A DNA stretch of 64,000 bases from Bacteroidota bacterium (GTDB taxonomy: Bacteria > Bacteroidota > Bacteroidia > Chitinophagales > Chitinophagaceae), in contig JAKPSI010000011.1 of NCBI GenBank assembly GCA_029555415.1, positions 1-64,000 of the forward strand, in the 5' to 3' direction. Position numbers and translations under genes: made by a program. The notes beneath the pieces were generated by a model. It was not told the origin of the DNA and did no database searches. It saw only the letters and a list, made by a program, of their open reading frames with translations. Position 1 is the first letter of the stretch. The number at the start of each line of letters is the position of its first letter. Below are positions 27,970 to 60,763 of the stretch, in pieces.

Positions 27970-28040
27970 TTGACCCATATGGATTCGAACCATAAATGAC
28001 TGAACCAAAATCAGTAGTGTTACCATTACACCATGGGTCA
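27970..28040 (-). tRNA. tRNA-Gln (TTG anticodon)
   Basis: The minus strand folds as a full cloverleaf: acceptor TGACCCA/TGGGTCA, D arm GTGT/ACAC, anticodon arm ACTGA/TCAGT with loop TTTTGGT (anticodon TTG), and T arm TATGG/CCATA with loop TTCGAAT. The discriminator base is A. CCA is not encoded. Confidence 0.96.
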
Positions 28041-28085: not shown

Positions 28086-28144
28086 GGAATTTTTGTTCTT
28101 TTTTACACCCGTTTACAAGGGAAATTGTCTTTTCATAAGGTATG

Positions 28145-28174
28145 GCTGCAAGCTGTAAGCCTCAGGCTTCAAGG
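28145..28174. repeat. Left copy of the AGCTTGCAGC/GCTTACAGCTTG repeat family
   Basis: GCTGCAAGCTGTAAGCC at 28145-28161 is the inverted counterpart of 28677-28693 (16 of 17 positions) on the far side of the S23 gene. It is followed by a second short inverted unit, AGGCTTCAAGG. Related words occur near 50.7 and 60.7 kb. Confidence 0.7.
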
Positions 28175-28209
28175 GTGAAAAAAACAAGCCTTGGCGGTTT
28201 TAATACTGC

Positions 28210-28238
28210 TTTGACTGGAAATAAGTGGATTAGATTTA
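28210..28238 (+). promoter_or_regulatory. Promoter of the S23-type gene
   Basis: TTTG (28210-28213) is followed after 17 nt by TAGATTTA (28231-28238), one mismatch from TAnnTTTG. The ATG lies 10 nt after the box, so the leader would be only a few nucleotides. Confidence 0.45.
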
Positions 28239-28247
28239 AGAAAAGAA

Positions 28248-28610
28248 ATGAGGGATTTCAAAGGGCTGAAGATCTGGAAAGTTGGATTTGATATTGCGGT
28301 TAATTGCCATAAGATTTCTTCAAAACTACCCTATTTTGAAAGATCGACATTAGGGGCACAGATCATTAAATCGGCATTTTCCATTTCTTCCAATATCGCG
28401 GAAGGAAGCGGTAGGAACAGTACAAAGGAATATCTGCGTTATATAGAGATCGCAACTGGTTCCGCATTCGAACTCGAATCACAGCTTCTTGTCGCTAAAG
28501 AGATCAGTACTGCTCTTTCAATATTGATAGATGAAACGCTAAACTTGCTTAAGGAAGAACAAAAAATGCTTCATGGGTTCACCCTGGCTCTGAAAACATC
28601 TTCGCTATGA
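28248..28610 (+). CDS. Four-helix-bundle protein (S23 / 23S rRNA intervening-sequence type)
   Basis: The 120-residue, all-helical protein has the family core LKIWKVGFDIAV, the central SISSNIAEGSGRNSTKEYLRY motif (with the SNIAEG signature) and ELESQLLVAKEI. Members are encoded within 23S rRNA intervening sequences in Leptospira and relatives, and as lone genes in many Bacteroidota. A distant relative (Avd) assists diversity-generating retroelements. No rRNA, reverse transcriptase or variable repeat is near this copy. It is framed by inverted copies of a dispersed repeat, which raises the possibility of a mobile or repeat-partnered unit. Molecular function is unknown. Confidence 0.92.
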   Translation: MRDFKGLKIWKVGFDIAVNCHKISSKLPYFERSTLGAQIIKSAFSISSNIAEGSGRNSTKEYLRYIEIATGSAFELESQLLVAKEISTALSILIDETLNLLKEEQKMLHGFTLALKTSSL

Positions 28611-28650
28611 AACCAAGATATTCAGGTTAAAGAGGCTAGGTTAGAACGCA

Positions 28651-28693
28651 CTTACAGCTTGTGGCTTACAGCTTGTGGCTTACAGCTTGCGGC
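28651..28693 (+). repeat. Right repeat: three tandem 14-mers
   Basis: CTTACAGCTTGTGG begins at 28651 and 28665, and a copy with one change (CTTACAGCTTGCGG) begins at 28679. The last copy, read as GGCTTACAGCTTGCGGC, is the inverted partner of the left repeat at 28145. The array ends 16 nt before the cphA stop codon. Confidence 0.8.
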
Positions 28694-28708
28694 ATATTAA
28701 AATGCAAT

Positions 28709-31339
28709 TCATTTTGCAACAGCTGTCTCCCGGTCCTTCAACTCCTTGATCTTATCCAACGCCCCCGCCACCACATCACACATGATCGTATACAACGCGC
28801 CTTCCTTCGGATTCGCGTAGATGTATTCCAGTGCTTCATTCTCATTGGCAATAGTGGTTACCGGAATGCCGGGTCTGACGGACTCAATGCCTTCTTTCAG
28901 CAAAGCAATGATCTCATCCGCAGTGCGGCCGCGTAAATTCTTGTCGCAACGGATGATGATCTCATCAAAATATTTCGCGGAGATCTCACCCAGCTCGCGG
29001 ATGTCCTCATCCCTGCGGTCGCCGGTACCACTGATCACACCGATCCTGGATGGGTAATCCAGCTTGCTGACGAAATCACAAAGCAGTTTCAGTCCATGCG
29101 GGTTGTGTGCAAAATCGGCCAGCATCGTGAAATGACGGAACTGGAAGAAATTCAGGCGCCCCGGAGTGAGGGTGGTGGACGGCACGAATGAGTTCAATGC
29201 CGAACGGATATCCTCGATACTGATATCACGGAAGATATATGCCGCCAGTACAGCGGGCAAACAGTTCTGGATATTATGTACCGCTTTGCCTTCATAAGTG
29301 AGCGGAATGTCCTTCACATGGATGACCCGGATCTTCCAGGTCCCTTTCATGATACTGATATAACCATTTTCAAATACAGTGGACACGCCGCCATCAGCGG
29401 AATGTGCTTTGATCCGCGGATTGTTCTCATCCATACTGAACAGCGCGATCTTGCATTTGAGGTCGTTCTTCATTTTATAGACCAGGTCATCATCCGCATT
29501 CAGTACCGCATAGCCATGCGGGAATACGGTTTCCACCACCACCGCTTTCACTTTCGCCATTTGTTCCACTGAATTGATCCCACCCAGACCGATATGATCG
29601 GCTGCTACATTGGTCACGATGCCCACTTCACAATTCTGGAAAGCGAGACCTGATTTCAGAATGCCACCCCGTGCGCATTCAAGCACCGCAAAGTCTACCG
29701 TCGGATCCTTCAATACGAATGCGGAACTCACCGGTCCTGTGCAGTCGCCTTTCATCATCAGCTGATTCTGGATGTAAACGCCATCAGAAGTGGTGTATCC
29801 TACTTTGCGTCCTGCTGTTTTGACGATATGCGCGGTCAGTCTTGTCGTGGTCGTTTTCCCATTCGTTCCGGTTATGGCGATGATCGGGATGCGCCCGGCA
29901 CTGCCTCTGGGGAACAGCATATCCACTACGGGTTCTGCCACGTTACGGGGCAGGCCTTCAGAAGGATCGATGTGCATGCGGAAACCCGGGGCGGCATTCA
30001 CTTCAAGAATGGCGCCGCCATTTTCAGAAACAGGCGTGCGGAGGTCCGTTGCCATTACATCGATACCACAGATATCCAGTCCGATGATCCTGGCGATGCG
30101 TTCGAACATGAAGATGTTGGCCGGATGCACTTCATCGGTCACATCGGTGGATGTACCGCCGGTCGAAAGATTGGCGGTGGGTTTCAGTAACACCAGTTCA
30201 CCCTTTGGGGGAACGGTCTCTAAGGTATATCCCGCGTCATCCAGCATTTTTTGCGTGAATTGATCGATCGTGATCTGGGTCAGTACTTTTTCATGTCCGT
30301 AGCCTCTGCGCGGATCCTTATTCGTTTCGTCGATCAGCCATTGAATGTTGTGTTCGCCGTCGCCGGTCACTGCAGCGGGTGTTCGTAACGCGGCACAGAT
30401 GAATTTGTAATTGATCACCAGACAACGGAAATCAAAACCGGTGATGAATTTTTCCACGATAACGGAACGGCTGTATTGTTTTGCGGCAGCGAATGCCGTG
30501 AGTGCCGTTTCCCAATTGTTGATATTGGTGGTGTTGCCTTTTCCGTGATTACCATCGATCGGTTTGATCACAAGGGGATACCCATATTTTTCAACAGCAT
30601 CTTTCAATCCCTCTTCTGATCGGATCACGGTGCCGCGGGGTACCGGGATCTCCGCATCACCCAGTAAGGCTTTCGTCTCTTCTTTGTCGCAGGCGATATC
30701 CACCGCGATATTGCCGGTCGTGGAAGCGATCGTTGCCCGGATCCTTTTCTGATTCACTCCATAACCCAGTTGAACCAGGCTGTGTTTATTCAACCGGATA
30801 TAAGGGATCCCCCTTTTCACTGCTTCATCTACGATACAACCGGTGGAAGGGCCGAGACGTGTATCCTCGCGGATCTCACGCATCTTTTGGATATCATTCG
30901 CAAGATCATATTCTGAATTGTCGATCAGTGCCTGCGCGATACGTACTGCGGCTCGTCCTGCATATACACCCGCATCTTCTTCCATATAACTGAACACGAC
31001 ATAGTATACGCCGTCTTTTTCTCCCTCAGCCGTACGTGTTCTGCCGAATCCGGTATCCATGCCAGCAAGCGTCTGGATCTCGAGCGCCATATGTTCGATC
31101 ACATGTCCCATCCAGGTGCCTTCATCCACGCGCTGGAAAAATCCACCTCGCGTACCCACACTGCAGCGGTGCTCCACCAGGGATGGTAACAGTTTTTCCA
31201 GCCGCTCCCGGAACCCCGCGATCTTATTCGTGGGCATGTTCTCTTTCTCTTCCAGGTCCAGTTTCATCTGGATCAGTTTCGTACGGCGGACACTCCAGTA
31301 ATTGGGCCCTTTCAGGATCTTGATCTCAAGTATTTTCAT
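28709..31339 (-). CDS. cphA: Cyanophycin synthetase
   Basis: Makes multi-L-arginyl-poly-L-aspartate (cyanophycin), a nitrogen and carbon store, by ATP-dependent alternating addition of Asp and Arg. The 876-residue protein has three parts: an N-terminal domain (1-160) with GTWMGHVIEHMALEIQTLAG; an ATP-grasp domain (about 205-480) with VIKPIDGNHGKG and ILEVNAAPGFRMH; and a Mur-ligase-like domain starting at the P-loop ITGTNGKTTTTR (about 490-500) with LECARGGILKSG. Order and length match CphA1-type enzymes. The degrading enzyme is encoded 3 kb away on the other strand. Confidence 0.95.
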   Translation of the reverse strand: MKILEIKILKGPNYWSVRRTKLIQMKLDLEEKENMPTNKIAGFRERLEKLLPSLVEHRCSVGTRGGFFQRVDEGTWMGHVIEHMALEIQTLAGMDTGFGRTRTAEGEKDGVYYVVFSYMEEDAGVYAGRAAVRIAQALIDNSEYDLANDIQKMREIREDTRLGPSTGCIVDEAVKRGIPYIRLNKHSLVQLGYGVNQKRIRATIASTTGNIAVDIACDKEETKALLGDAEIPVPRGTVIRSEEGLKDAVEKYGYPLVIKPIDGNHGKGNTTNINNWETALTAFAAAKQYSRSVIVEKFITGFDFRCLVINYKFICAALRTPAAVTGDGEHNIQWLIDETNKDPRRGYGHEKVLTQITIDQFTQKMLDDAGYTLETVPPKGELVLLKPTANLSTGGTSTDVTDEVHPANIFMFERIARIIGLDICGIDVMATDLRTPVSENGGAILEVNAAPGFRMHIDPSEGLPRNVAEPVVDMLFPRGSAGRIPIIAITGTNGKTTTTRLTAHIVKTAGRKVGYTTSDGVYIQNQLMMKGDCTGPVSSAFVLKDPTVDFAVLECARGGILKSGLAFQNCEVGIVTNVAADHIGLGGINSVEQMAKVKAVVVETVFPHGYAVLNADDDLVYKMKNDLKCKIALFSMDENNPRIKAHSADGGVSTVFENGYISIMKGTWKIRVIHVKDIPLTYEGKAVHNIQNCLPAVLAAYIFRDISIEDIRSALNSFVPSTTLTPGRLNFFQFRHFTMLADFAHNPHGLKLLCDFVSKLDYPSRIGVISGTGDRRDEDIRELGEISAKYFDEIIIRCDKNLRGRTADEIIALLKEGIESVRPGIPVTTIANENEALEYIYANPKEGALYTIMCDVVAGALDKIKELKDRETAVAK

Positions 31340-50671: not shown

Positions 50672-50707
50672 GGCTTCTTGCGGCTTGTAGCTTTAAGCTT
50701 GCAGCTT
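50672..50707. repeat. Dispersed repeat between ribE and rpsU
   Basis: The segment contains CTTGCGGCTTGTAGC followed by AAGCTTGCAGCTT. AGCTTGCAGC at 50696-50705 is the exact inverse of GCTGCAAGCT at 28145-28154 and 60696-60705. It lies just upstream of the rpsU promoter. Confidence 0.7.
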
Positions 50708-53292: not shown

Positions 53293-53365
53293 GCCACTTT
53301 AGCTCAGCAGGTAGAGCAACTGATTTGTAATCAGTAGGTCGTTGGTTCGATTCCGACAAGTGGCT
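53293..53365 (+). tRNA. tRNA-Thr (TGT anticodon)
   Basis: Cloverleaf with acceptor GCCACTT/AAGTGGC, anticodon arm CTGAT/ATCAG with loop TTGTA (TGT), and T loop TTCGATT. The discriminator is T. Confidence 0.96.
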
Positions 53366-53376
53366 CTGATTGAGTG

Positions 53377-53459
53377 GGGCAAGTAGCCAAGTGGCCAACG
53401 GCAACAGACTGTAAATCTGTCCTCTTCGGAGTTCGGTGGTTCGAATCCATCCTTGCCCA
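53377..53459 (+). tRNA. tRNA-Tyr (GTA anticodon)
   Basis: Acceptor GGGCAAG/CTTGCCC, anticodon arm CAGA/TCTG with GTA in the loop, and a long variable arm (CCTCTTCGGAG region), as expected for bacterial class II tRNA-Tyr. The discriminator is A. Confidence 0.96.
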
Positions 53460-53479
53460 CATTAGTTCTTTTATTTTAA

Positions 53480-53552
53480 GCGGGAGTAGCTCATTTGGTA
53501 GAGCGATAGCCTTCCAAGCTATAGGTGGCGAGTTCGAGCCTCGTCTCCCGCT
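53480..53552 (+). tRNA. tRNA-Gly (TCC anticodon)
   Basis: Acceptor GCGGGAG/CTCCCGC, anticodon stem TAGC/GCTA with loop CTTCCAA (TCC), and T loop TTCGAGC. The discriminator is T. Confidence 0.96.
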
Positions 53553-53601
53553 CTGGTCGAGTCCCGCCTGAGCAATGTTACAATGGCGTGAGACACGAAA
53601 A

Positions 53602-53673
<72 letters not shown>

Positions 53674-53782
53674 CAAATGGCAGGACGCTGCCGGAAACAG
53701 GAAATACAGGAGCACAGGTTCAACCGGTACTTCTTTATGATAAATAAAAATTGGTTTAAACACAACTAAAAAACAGATAACA

Positions 53783-54973
53783 ATGGCAACAAAAGAGACC
53801 TTCAAGAGGGACAAACCTCACGTTAACGTTGGTACTATCGGTCACATTGACCACGGTAAAACCACTTTAACAGCCGCCATCACGACCATTCTGGCCAAGA
53901 AAGGTTTTGCGGAAGCAAAAAAATACGATGAAATCGATGCTGCTCCTGAAGAAAAGGAACGTGGTATCACGATCAACACGGCTCACGTGGAGTATCAGAC
54001 AAACAACCGCCACTATGCGCACGTTGACTGTCCTGGTCACGCTGACTACGTGAAGAACATGATCACTGGTGCTGCCCAGATGGACGGTGCGATCCTCGTT
54101 GTTGCCGCTACTGACGGTCCCATGCCGCAAACTAAAGAGCACATCCTGCTTGCCCGCCAGGTAGGTGTACCTAAAATTGTTGTGTTCATGAATAAAGTAG
54201 ACCTGGTTGATGACCCGGAACTGCTTGACCTCGTTGAAATGGAGATCCGCGATCTGCTGACATTCTACGGTTTCGATGGTGCTAACACACCGATCATCCA
54301 GGGTTCTGCTACCGGCGCACTCGCTGGCGAAGAAAAATGGGTGAAAGCTGTTGAAGACCTGATGGATGCAGTTGACTCTTATATTCCCCTGCCTCCCCGC
54401 CCGGTTGATCAGCCGTTCCTGATGTCTGTTGAGGACGTATTCTCTATCACTGGTCGTGGTACTGTTGCTACCGGCCGTATCGAAAGAGGTCGTATCAAAG
54501 TTGGTGAACCCGTTGAGATCGTTGGTCTGATCGAAAAACCGCTCGCTTCTGTTTGTACAGGTGTGGAAATGTTCCGCAAACTGCTCGACGAAGGTGAAGC
54601 TGGTGACAACGCCGGTCTGCTGCTCCGTGGTATTGAGAAAACCCAGATCCGTCGTGGTATGGTTATCGTGAAACCCGGTTCTATCACTCCGCACACTGAA
54701 TTCAAAGCTGAAGTATACGTACTGAGCAAAGAAGAAGGTGGACGTCACACTCCGTTCTTCAACAAATACCGTCCTCAGTTCTACTTCCGTACAACTGACG
54801 TAACTGGTGAAGTTGAACTGAACGCCGGTACTGAAATGGTTATGCCTGGTGATAATACCTCCCTGACCGTGAAGCTGATCCAGCCGATCGCGATGGAAAA
54901 AGGTCTGAAGTTCGCCATCCGTGAAGGTGGTCGTACCGTGGGTGCTGGTCAGGTAACTGAGATCATTAAATAA
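53783..54973 (+). CDS. tuf: Elongation factor Tu
   Basis: GTPase that delivers aminoacyl-tRNA to the ribosome. The 396-residue protein has [11 protein letters not shown] (P-loop), [12 protein letters not shown] (switch I), [20 protein letters not shown] (switch II) and MNKVDLVDD. Domains 2 and 3 are complete to the end, [11 protein letters not shown]. The start follows an A-rich leader (AAAAAACAGATAAC) with no SD. It is transcribed after four tRNAs and before tRNA-Trp. Confidence 0.98.
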
Positions 54974-55015
54974 GCAGACACGCTACAAAGCCCTGCATCA
55001 CCGAAAGGTACTGCA

Positions 55016-55131
55016 AGCTTTTAGCCCCTGGCCCTCGCAGGAAGTCTGAGCCGCAAGGCGATACAAAGGAATTTGTCTTTGTAAAATAAGATGCTAAAAG
55101 CTGTCCCGACCTGGTCTGGATAGCTTTTAGC
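55016..55131. repeat. AGCTTTTAGC element in three copies between tuf and tRNA-Trp
   Basis: AGCTTTTAGC occurs at 55016-55025 and 55122-55131, and its inverse GCTAAAAGCT at 55093-55102. The last two form a 10-bp stem with a 19-nt loop ending 5 nt before the tRNA-Trp gene. The copy at 55016 is preceded by TGCA, giving a TGCAAGCTT word like the dispersed repeat family. Confidence 0.7.
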
Positions 55132-55136
55132 TTTCT

Positions 55137-55207
55137 ACGGGCATAGTTCAATGGCAGAATAGCGGTCTCCAAAACCGTTGATGGGAGTTCGAATCTCTCT
55201 GCCCGTG
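55137..55207 (+). tRNA. tRNA-Trp (CCA anticodon)
   Basis: Acceptor ACGGGCA/TGCCCGT, anticodon arm GCGGT/ACCGT with loop CTCCAAA (CCA), and T loop TTCGAAT. The discriminator is G. The order tuf-trnW-secE is conserved in bacteria. Confidence 0.96.
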
Positions 55208-60692: not shown

Positions 60693-60763
60693 AAAGCTGC
60701 AAGCTAATAGCTTCAAGCCTCAAGGTGTTCCGCCTTGTAGCTTACAGCTTGAAGCCTGGGGCT
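60693..60763. repeat. Dispersed repeat with long stem between rplJ and rplL
   Basis: GCTTCAAGC (60710-60718) and GCTTGAAGC (60747-60755) are perfect inverse 9-mers, with further pairing CAAGG/CCTTG inside. It also contains GCTGCAAGCT (60696-60705) and GCTTACAGCTTG (60740-60751), words shared with the repeats flanking the S23 gene. It lies within the operon, 6 nt after the rplJ stop. Confidence 0.75.

Follow-up and report, generated by a model that had tools for sequence, protein, structure and literature searches.

The window, by which we mean the whole 64,000-nt stretch of DNA analysed here (contig C116 of a 3.97-Mb draft genome in 139 contigs), harbors a small S23 gene framed by inverted repeats, with related repeats lying elsewhere in the same stretch. 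The individual features are as follows:

28248-28610, plus strand: S23/four-helix-bundle gene, 120 aa (PF05635, TIGR02436, AlphaFold, Foldseek)
28145-28173, plus strand: left (5') arm with the AG-type heptads AAGCTGT, AAGCCTC, and AGGCTTC; inverted repeat of 28665-28693; 14 of 21 matches at lag 7
28651-28693, plus strand: right (3') arm, three tandem 14-mers made of the alternating heptads GGCTTAC / AGCTTGT; tandem repeat, base-paired to the left arm when folded as RNA
50673-50705, plus strand: S23-less array of the window word family (GGCTTGT AGCTTTA AGCTTGC), lag-7 score 15/21
60694-60762, no strand assigned: S23-less hairpin of the window word family, inverted lag-7 arrays 60694-60724 and 60734-60762 around a loop of about 9 nt
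55013-55026, minus strand: weak related word (AGCTTTTAGC type), possibly chance, with 2 mismatches to the 13-mer; another at 55119-55131

The encoded protein matches PF05635 with 94.4 bits (cut-off 33.8) and TIGR02436 with 89.4 bits (cut-off 24), and searches of Pfam and NCBIfam returned no family beyond S23 in the element at E <= 0.001, including no transposase and no Y1 (HUH) protein. Its AlphaFold model is a four-helix bundle (pLDDT 95.2), for which Foldseek gave 2gsc (XCC0516, TM 0.86) and 2rld (TM 0.82) as nearest structures, with five chains listed for each, followed at about 10 % identity by Avd, both in the ribonucleoprotein of a diversity-generating retroelement (8ub7, TM 0.77) and in 4dwl (TM 0.75). 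We know of no recognised nuclease or polymerase activity of S23 proteins, and no nuclease or polymerase was seen coupled to S23 at the loci studied. Upstream, the gene is neighbored by a tRNA (27970-28040, minus strand) and downstream by a cyanophycin synthetase gene (28709-31339, minus strand). An Rfam scan of the window gave tRNAs only and no rRNA gene, and the element is thus not located in rRNA.

The two ends of the element, 28145-28161 (GCTGCAAGCTGTAAGCC) and 28677-28693 (GGCTTACAGCTTGCGGC), form an inverted repeat that agrees in 16 of 17 positions, just as the original prediction had it, and complementarity extends to 83 % over the 29 nt of the arms 28145-28173 and 28665-28693. The tandem 14-mers described at the right end are likewise present (28651-28693, 3.1 copies, 96 % matches); the actual repeat unit is 7 nt, the 14-mer being composed of two related heptads. 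This period is faint at the window locus, with 14/21 matches at lag 7 in the left arm and 21/21 at lag 14 in the right arm, and no stretch of the window reaches 16/21 matches at lag 7. When folded as RNA, 28140-28700 is closed by the arms with a z-score of -3.48, and none of 100 shuffled sequences was as stable. The same words had furthermore been noticed in spacers at 50.7 and 60.7 kb, where we indeed find the array and the hairpin listed above, whereas the related word at 55.0 kb, although present, is weak and with its 2 mismatches within the reach of chance. Allowing up to 2 mismatches, GGCTTACAGCTTG occurs 7 times in the window, compared to a mean of 1.10 and a maximum of 4 in 100 shuffles, and the genome-wide count that had been proposed yielded 25 occurrences at up to 1 mismatch in 3.97 Mb (reversed-pattern control: 2). 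Further tandem-repeat (TRF) hits at 61.2 kb were judged to be chance or coding. The weak 55.0-kb word adjoins a cluster of four tRNA genes at 53293-55207, with a fifth at 55137.

Five PF05635 genes were found in the draft genome, and all five possess inverted short-tandem-repeat arms, each pair with a different word: RGCTTRY types in the window, GGTATTA beside atpD, ATTTTGA, TAATTAA, and AGGTAAY between glgA and glgC (gene names by NCBIfam). Within one S23 locus the arms are in register with each other, variant units included. The window word itself had been expected to be a general companion of S23 genes, and S23 genes elsewhere in the genome lacking it had been named beforehand as the finding that would speak against this; it is absent at the other four. 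As each of them has its own word in the same anatomy, the rule is broader than originally thought. Three of the five proteins (L003, L004, and L005) fall into a divergent branch with only 19-22 % identity to the protein in the window and are framed by the same kind of arms; in the divergent-branch words ATTTTGA and TAATTAA, the AG anchor described below is missing or weak.

An S23 gene is present in 87 of the 117 genomes of the family and in 157 of 198 genomes of the phylum. For loci of this genome and the family, an inverted-arm score of at least 14 was reached in 29/33 cases (one of 34 rows was dropped before counting), and the locus's own arm pair exceeded the 95th percentile of upstream arms paired with the downstream arms of other loci in 22/33 and the 99th percentile in 12/33 cases; some loci of this control have the same site and word. 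In the phylum sample (72 S23 loci after 5 of 77 matches had been dropped), 64 % score at least 14, as compared to 0.77 % for sliding positions (n = 4265) and 1.5 % for other genes (n = 534) in the same regions; at a score of at least 12 the corresponding values are 76 %, 4.4 %, and 6.2 %. It should be kept in mind that the loci from the family and phylum searches are the best-scoring copies per genome and that 40 larger regions were picked by hand from the best matches listed. Beyond the phylum, scores of at least 14 were found in 19/27 non-Bacteroidota and 32/51 Bacteroidota loci from named genomes; this set covers the best 80 of 590 proteins sharing the motif S[IV]P[ST]NIAEG (78 examined, 2 dropped at contig ends) and samples divergent S23 subfamilies unevenly. 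Within these best 80 of 590, arms scoring at least 14 occur in Acidobacteriota, Alpha- and Betaproteobacteria, Chloroflexi, Desulfosarcina, Elusimicrobia, Kaiserbacteria, Lambdaproteobacteria, Polyangiaceae, Nitrospirae, Omnitrophica, Planctomycetota, Poribacteria, WOR-3, and one further bacterium, with the proviso that many non-Bacteroidota loci are MAG contigs whose single taxon assignments may be wrong. Plasmids contribute as well: arms score at least 14 at 7 of 8 loci (Cyanobacteriota and Gemmatimonadota, taken from 11 S23-bearing plasmid records), including Nostoc GGGAACA arrays.

Pooling the distinct S23 loci from Bacteroidota, Cyanobacteriota, and about 15 other groups (without repeated genes and loci with <150 nt of flank, the named-genome part again stemming from the best 80 of 590), 133/193 score at least 14 and 155/193 at least 12, which leaves 60 below 14 and 38 below 12. 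These proportions are also seen after clustering of the proteins: a majority of members scores at least 14 in 103/147 clusters at 70 % and 40/52 at 60 % identity, and a majority has period 7 or 8 in 145/147 and 51/52 clusters, respectively. The framing of S23 genes by element-specific inverted arrays of 7- or 8-nt units is well supported. No relatives were found in viral contigs queried with the window protein, and no 23S rRNA lies beside the 14 scanned S23 loci with weak or no arms. Several S23 copies contain one to six in-frame stops (e. g., G043:C173:2810-3094 and G051:C31:505154-505450), which suggests that they are decaying elements.

The anatomy of these elements is a general one. When periods of 5-12 were tested, 7 was best in 149/193 and 8 in 35/193 S23 loci (184/193 together), as opposed to 7 or 8 in 149/534 other genes, and even among the loci scoring below 12 this applies to 35/38. 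For the 133 loci scoring at least 14, the median arm measures 30 nt, corresponding to about four units, and the median distance between the arms is 411 nt. The gap from the end of the upstream arm to the ATG has a median of 36 nt, and that from the stop codon to the start of the downstream arm a median of 7 nt. On RNA folding, 128/133 of these loci (21 with the arms shuffled) show 50 % or more of the 5' arm paired with the 3' arm. The units share an in-phase AG dinucleotide (0.78 per unit versus 0.29 in shuffled arms); across loci, none of the other positions exceeds 0.44 bit, yet they are consistent inside a locus. The AG is located in the 5' arm in 117 loci versus 8, which characterizes the hairpin, whichever strand it is on, and not the strand of the gene.

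Word and period co-vary with the lineage of the S23 protein. On a FastTree tree of 124 S23 proteins, which has few columns and many weak forks, the period label (7 or 8) changes 11 times compared to 25.3 times when shuffled, and none of 500 shuffles was as low. Matching words among pairs without homologous neighbors amount to 2-4 % below 55 % protein identity and 17 % at 55-65 %, and rise to 57 % (of 14 pairs at non-homologous sites) at 65 % identity or above; across all pairs, protein and word are weakly rank-correlated (0.109; highest of 500 permutations 0.114). Words are even shared between phyla, for example, by Pseudanabaena and Adhaeribacter (TTAGC words), by Limnohabitans and Flavobacterium (TGTATAT), and by a Nitrospirae MAG and a family member (GGCAC octads).

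The elements occupy unrelated gene contexts, among them the operon sites argC-argD, rpoB-rpoC, glgA-glgC, the gap between leuB and a citramalate-synthase-like gene, and the position after atpD. S23 was found in the argC-argD gap at 10 and on the other side of argD at 1 of 30 argD loci, and in the rpoB-rpoC gap at 2 of 30 rpoC loci. An invertible cassette was considered and rejected, as the apparently opposite orientations of S23 were an artefact of contig orientation; with loci oriented by HMM, S23 is co-oriented with the operon in 10/10 argC-argD gaps, in the single case beside argD, and in 2/2 rpoB-rpoC gaps. Occupied and empty states of the same intercistronic site are found between genera and in one congener pair (G007 and G106, argC-argD), the source genus being represented by this genome only. 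Other states occur, too: G062 carries an S23-less array together with the apparent end of an S23 gene at argC-argD, and S23 is lacking at argC-argD of G084 and at rpoB-rpoC of G006, each of which contains a heptad hairpin whose loop measures about 5 nt. The argC-argD word is the same across genera, as expected of old, vertically inherited copies.

Arrays without S23 are dispersed through the genome. On C22, a 400-kb contig on which none of the genome's five S23 genes lies, 50 period-7 arrays reach 16/21 matches (shuffle: 0), in contrast to at most 6 for each other period from 4 to 13; the harmonic 14 gives 33. At a slightly lower threshold, 60 arrays are found, of which 36 match the genome's own five S23 words, whereas sets of five S23 arms drawn 2000 times from the family's other genomes match a mean of 6.7 (maximum 20) and those drawn from a wider sample a mean of 8.2 (maximum 31). 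The remaining 24 arrays include the large TAGTCNN family. Among the 211 arrays that lie apart from S23, 43 are accompanied by a hairpin partner at a distance of at most about 130 nt (in 23 cases with a loop of up to 30 nt), compared to 1 of 250 control positions. Hairpins are thus enriched, but by this criterion the majority of the dispersed arrays do not form one. On a Pseudanabaena plasmid, a solo hairpin is built from the word of the plasmid's own S23 element. Near-perfect S23-less hairpins with short loops, consisting of GGGACTC heptads and GGCTGCGT octads, also occur on the Gemmatirosa plasmid NZ_CP007129 (L358, 39453-39530 and 9781-9855; L359, 48045 and 43656). Period-7 arrays are absent from 200 kb each of three S23-free genomes (G014, G105, and G113) and number 15, 13, and 57 in the same length of the S23-carrying relatives G004, G026, and G054 (one run of N was removed from these counts), the number of genomes compared being small. 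As a counter-example, G006 has no S23 match, yet contains one heptad hairpin, namely that between rpoB and rpoC (L119).

Several known systems resemble these elements in part. RAYTs are relatives of Y1-type (HUH) transposases of about 150-200 aa, and REPs are single palindromes that form several families per genome, each with its own RAYT paralogue. The likeness of REPIN/RAYT to the S23 elements lies in dispersed short inverted repeats with a cognate gene and in the presence of several repeat families in one genome, every family being matched by a protein paralogue of its own; S23, however, is a 120-aa four-helix bundle rather than a transposase, and its repeats are tandem arrays rather than palindromes. 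The original comparison with a REP/BIME-type repeat and its small protein thus holds with respect to a dispersed repeat that has a protein partner (36/60 arrays) but fails with respect to the palindrome, the repeats being tandem arrays of 7 or 8 nt. Of the readings considered, the likeliest has S23 as the partner of the repeat, in the way that RAYT is of REP. Avd of diversity-generating retroelements, which is a pentamer and belongs to an RNA-protein complex, is similar in fold (at about 10 % identity), and neither a reverse transcriptase nor a variable repeat is among the named S23 neighbors. The heptameric repeats of cyanobacteria are known as STRR and, like the S23 arms, are intergenic tandem arrays of 7-nt units. 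The Xanthomonas GGGAATC and Beggiatoaceae TAACTGA repeats are arrays of this type as well, in Xanthomonas with typically about four units and 70-75 inverted pairs per genome (PMC4692102, PMC4679880). No S23-family partner is proposed for them in the available parts of these papers, the main texts of which contain neither "S23" nor "four helix", and we found no report of a pairing of S23 genes with heptad arrays in the open-licence literature, which mostly excludes subscription papers.

Another close system is that of the S23-bearing intervening sequences (IVSs) of 23S rRNA, for example in Leptospira and Coxiella, which have the same protein family, a stem whose loop contains the S23 ORF, and a similar size; according to the accessible part of PMC4990558, the Coxiella IVS measures 428 nt and has a 28-bp stem. 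In contrast, the elements described here reside in intercistronic or intergenic sites and not inside an rRNA gene, their stem is an array of 7- or 8-nt repeats with an element-specific word, and S23-less arrays are found genome-wide. As they neither share the rRNA location of the IVSs nor have the transposase and palindrome of REPIN/RAYT, we set them apart from both, although a cautious reader may prefer to regard them as being of the S23/IVS kind.

The reading that we favor, with a probability of about 0.6, is that the feature in the window represents one copy of a compact stem-loop element with S23 in its loop and with S23-less derivatives dispersed in the genome. Such an element would comprise about 450-600 nt, with the S23 gene in the loop and a stem of two inverted arrays of about four 7- or 8-nt units, and every element would have its own word, of which only the AG dinucleotide is common to most. 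It presumably moves as a unit, also between phyla. S23, a four-helix bundle with Avd of the retroelement ribonucleoprotein among its nearest solved relatives, would recognise the repeat of its own arms, either as RNA or as single-stranded DNA, and the S23-less arrays and hairpins dispersed in the genome would be derivatives with a present or former dependence on S23 in trans. The S23-bearing rRNA intervening sequences may be elements of the same kind seated in a loop of the rRNA. As for the earlier suggestion that the repeats explain how S23 genes enter 23S rRNA, the shared stem, the ORF in the loop, and the size only point that way.

A more far-reaching version, which we offer tentatively and would not be surprised to see fail, is drawn from the fold neighbors, such as the pentameric Avd, and from the AG-phased units. 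TRAP binds RNA at spaced NAG triplets, and S23 proteins might, somewhat similarly, be rings that read one AG-anchored 7- or 8-nt unit per subunit. They could then be the specificity factors of a very widespread class of mobile stem-loop elements, of which the S23-framed ones would be the complete form, the dispersed heptad or octad arrays and hairpins (including cyanobacterial STRRs and Xanthomonas heptamers) the derivatives, and the rRNA intervening sequences a form that has settled in rRNA loops.

S23 proteins, whose function is a long-standing question, came to light when the intervening sequences of 23S rRNA were described. The finding connects this question to a second old puzzle, i. e., the 7-nt tandem repeats across bacterial genomes, and renders both testable, as each S23 has a predicted binding site of its own and mismatched pairs provide natural controls. 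If the partnership is true, a large class of intergenic repeats would acquire a partner protein, and the way in which IVSs enter rRNA would become a special case of a general element.

Heptad hairpins might instead spread by other means, such as replication slippage and hairpin repair, with S23 cassettes merely inserting into their loops, in which case S23 would account for its own position and not for the repeats. This explanation, which we consider improbable, would fit the S23-less hairpins with short loops at sites that S23 occupies in other genera (L082, argC-argD; L119, rpoB-rpoC) and those found elsewhere (43/211 arrays), and it is in line with partially available sources: rRNA IVSs took the place of tetraloops of rRNA helices (PMC4990558), and a preference of slippage for 7-nt units has been suggested (cited in PMC4679880). 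It is at odds with word and period tracking the S23 lineage, unrelated sites and different phyla included, with the lack of such arrays in the three S23-free genomes, and with the fact that the dispersed words of a genome are predicted by its S23 words.

Somewhat more doubtful still is the notion that the arms function in mRNA processing or autoregulation only, i. e., as a regulatory stem in operon transcripts whose cleavage by RNase III, or binding by S23, releases the S23 cistron from its neighbors, with the elements now being immobile and vertically inherited. Both neighbors are on the S23 strand at 100/127 loci as compared to 294/498 control genes, elements being mostly intercistronic and co-oriented, which suits such a role, as do the argC-argD site and word kept across genera, the arm pairing in 128/133 folds, and the in vitro cleavage of the Coxiella rRNA IVS by RNase III (reported in the accessible part of PMC4990558). 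The dispersed S23-less arrays of the same word and the near-identical elements in unrelated contexts and phyla would, however, be left unexplained. Chance or composition, i. e., accidental inverted repeats beside small genes in low-complexity intergenic DNA, might be suspected from the faint 7-nt period at the window locus and from a score of 12 being reached by approximately 4 to 6 % of the controls (positions or genes), but is highly implausible and already contradicted by the controls, of which merely 0.8 % and 1.5 % score at least 14, by period 7 standing alone among 4-13 on C22 (50 versus at most 6, shuffle 0), and by the recurrence of the pattern in independent samples from other phyla.

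Two further observations concern individual elements. The TAGTCNN heptad family (C22 of the source genome G000; L120-L139) has no matching S23 among the five found, and its cognate gene may have been lost or may lie in an assembly gap; a TAGTCGG array adjoins the GGTATTA-framed S23 element after atpD. On the Pseudanabaena galeata plasmid NZ_CP112875 (L213, 44768-48118), cas6 and cas4 of a CRISPR locus flank an S23 element whose TTAGCTT arrays are long.
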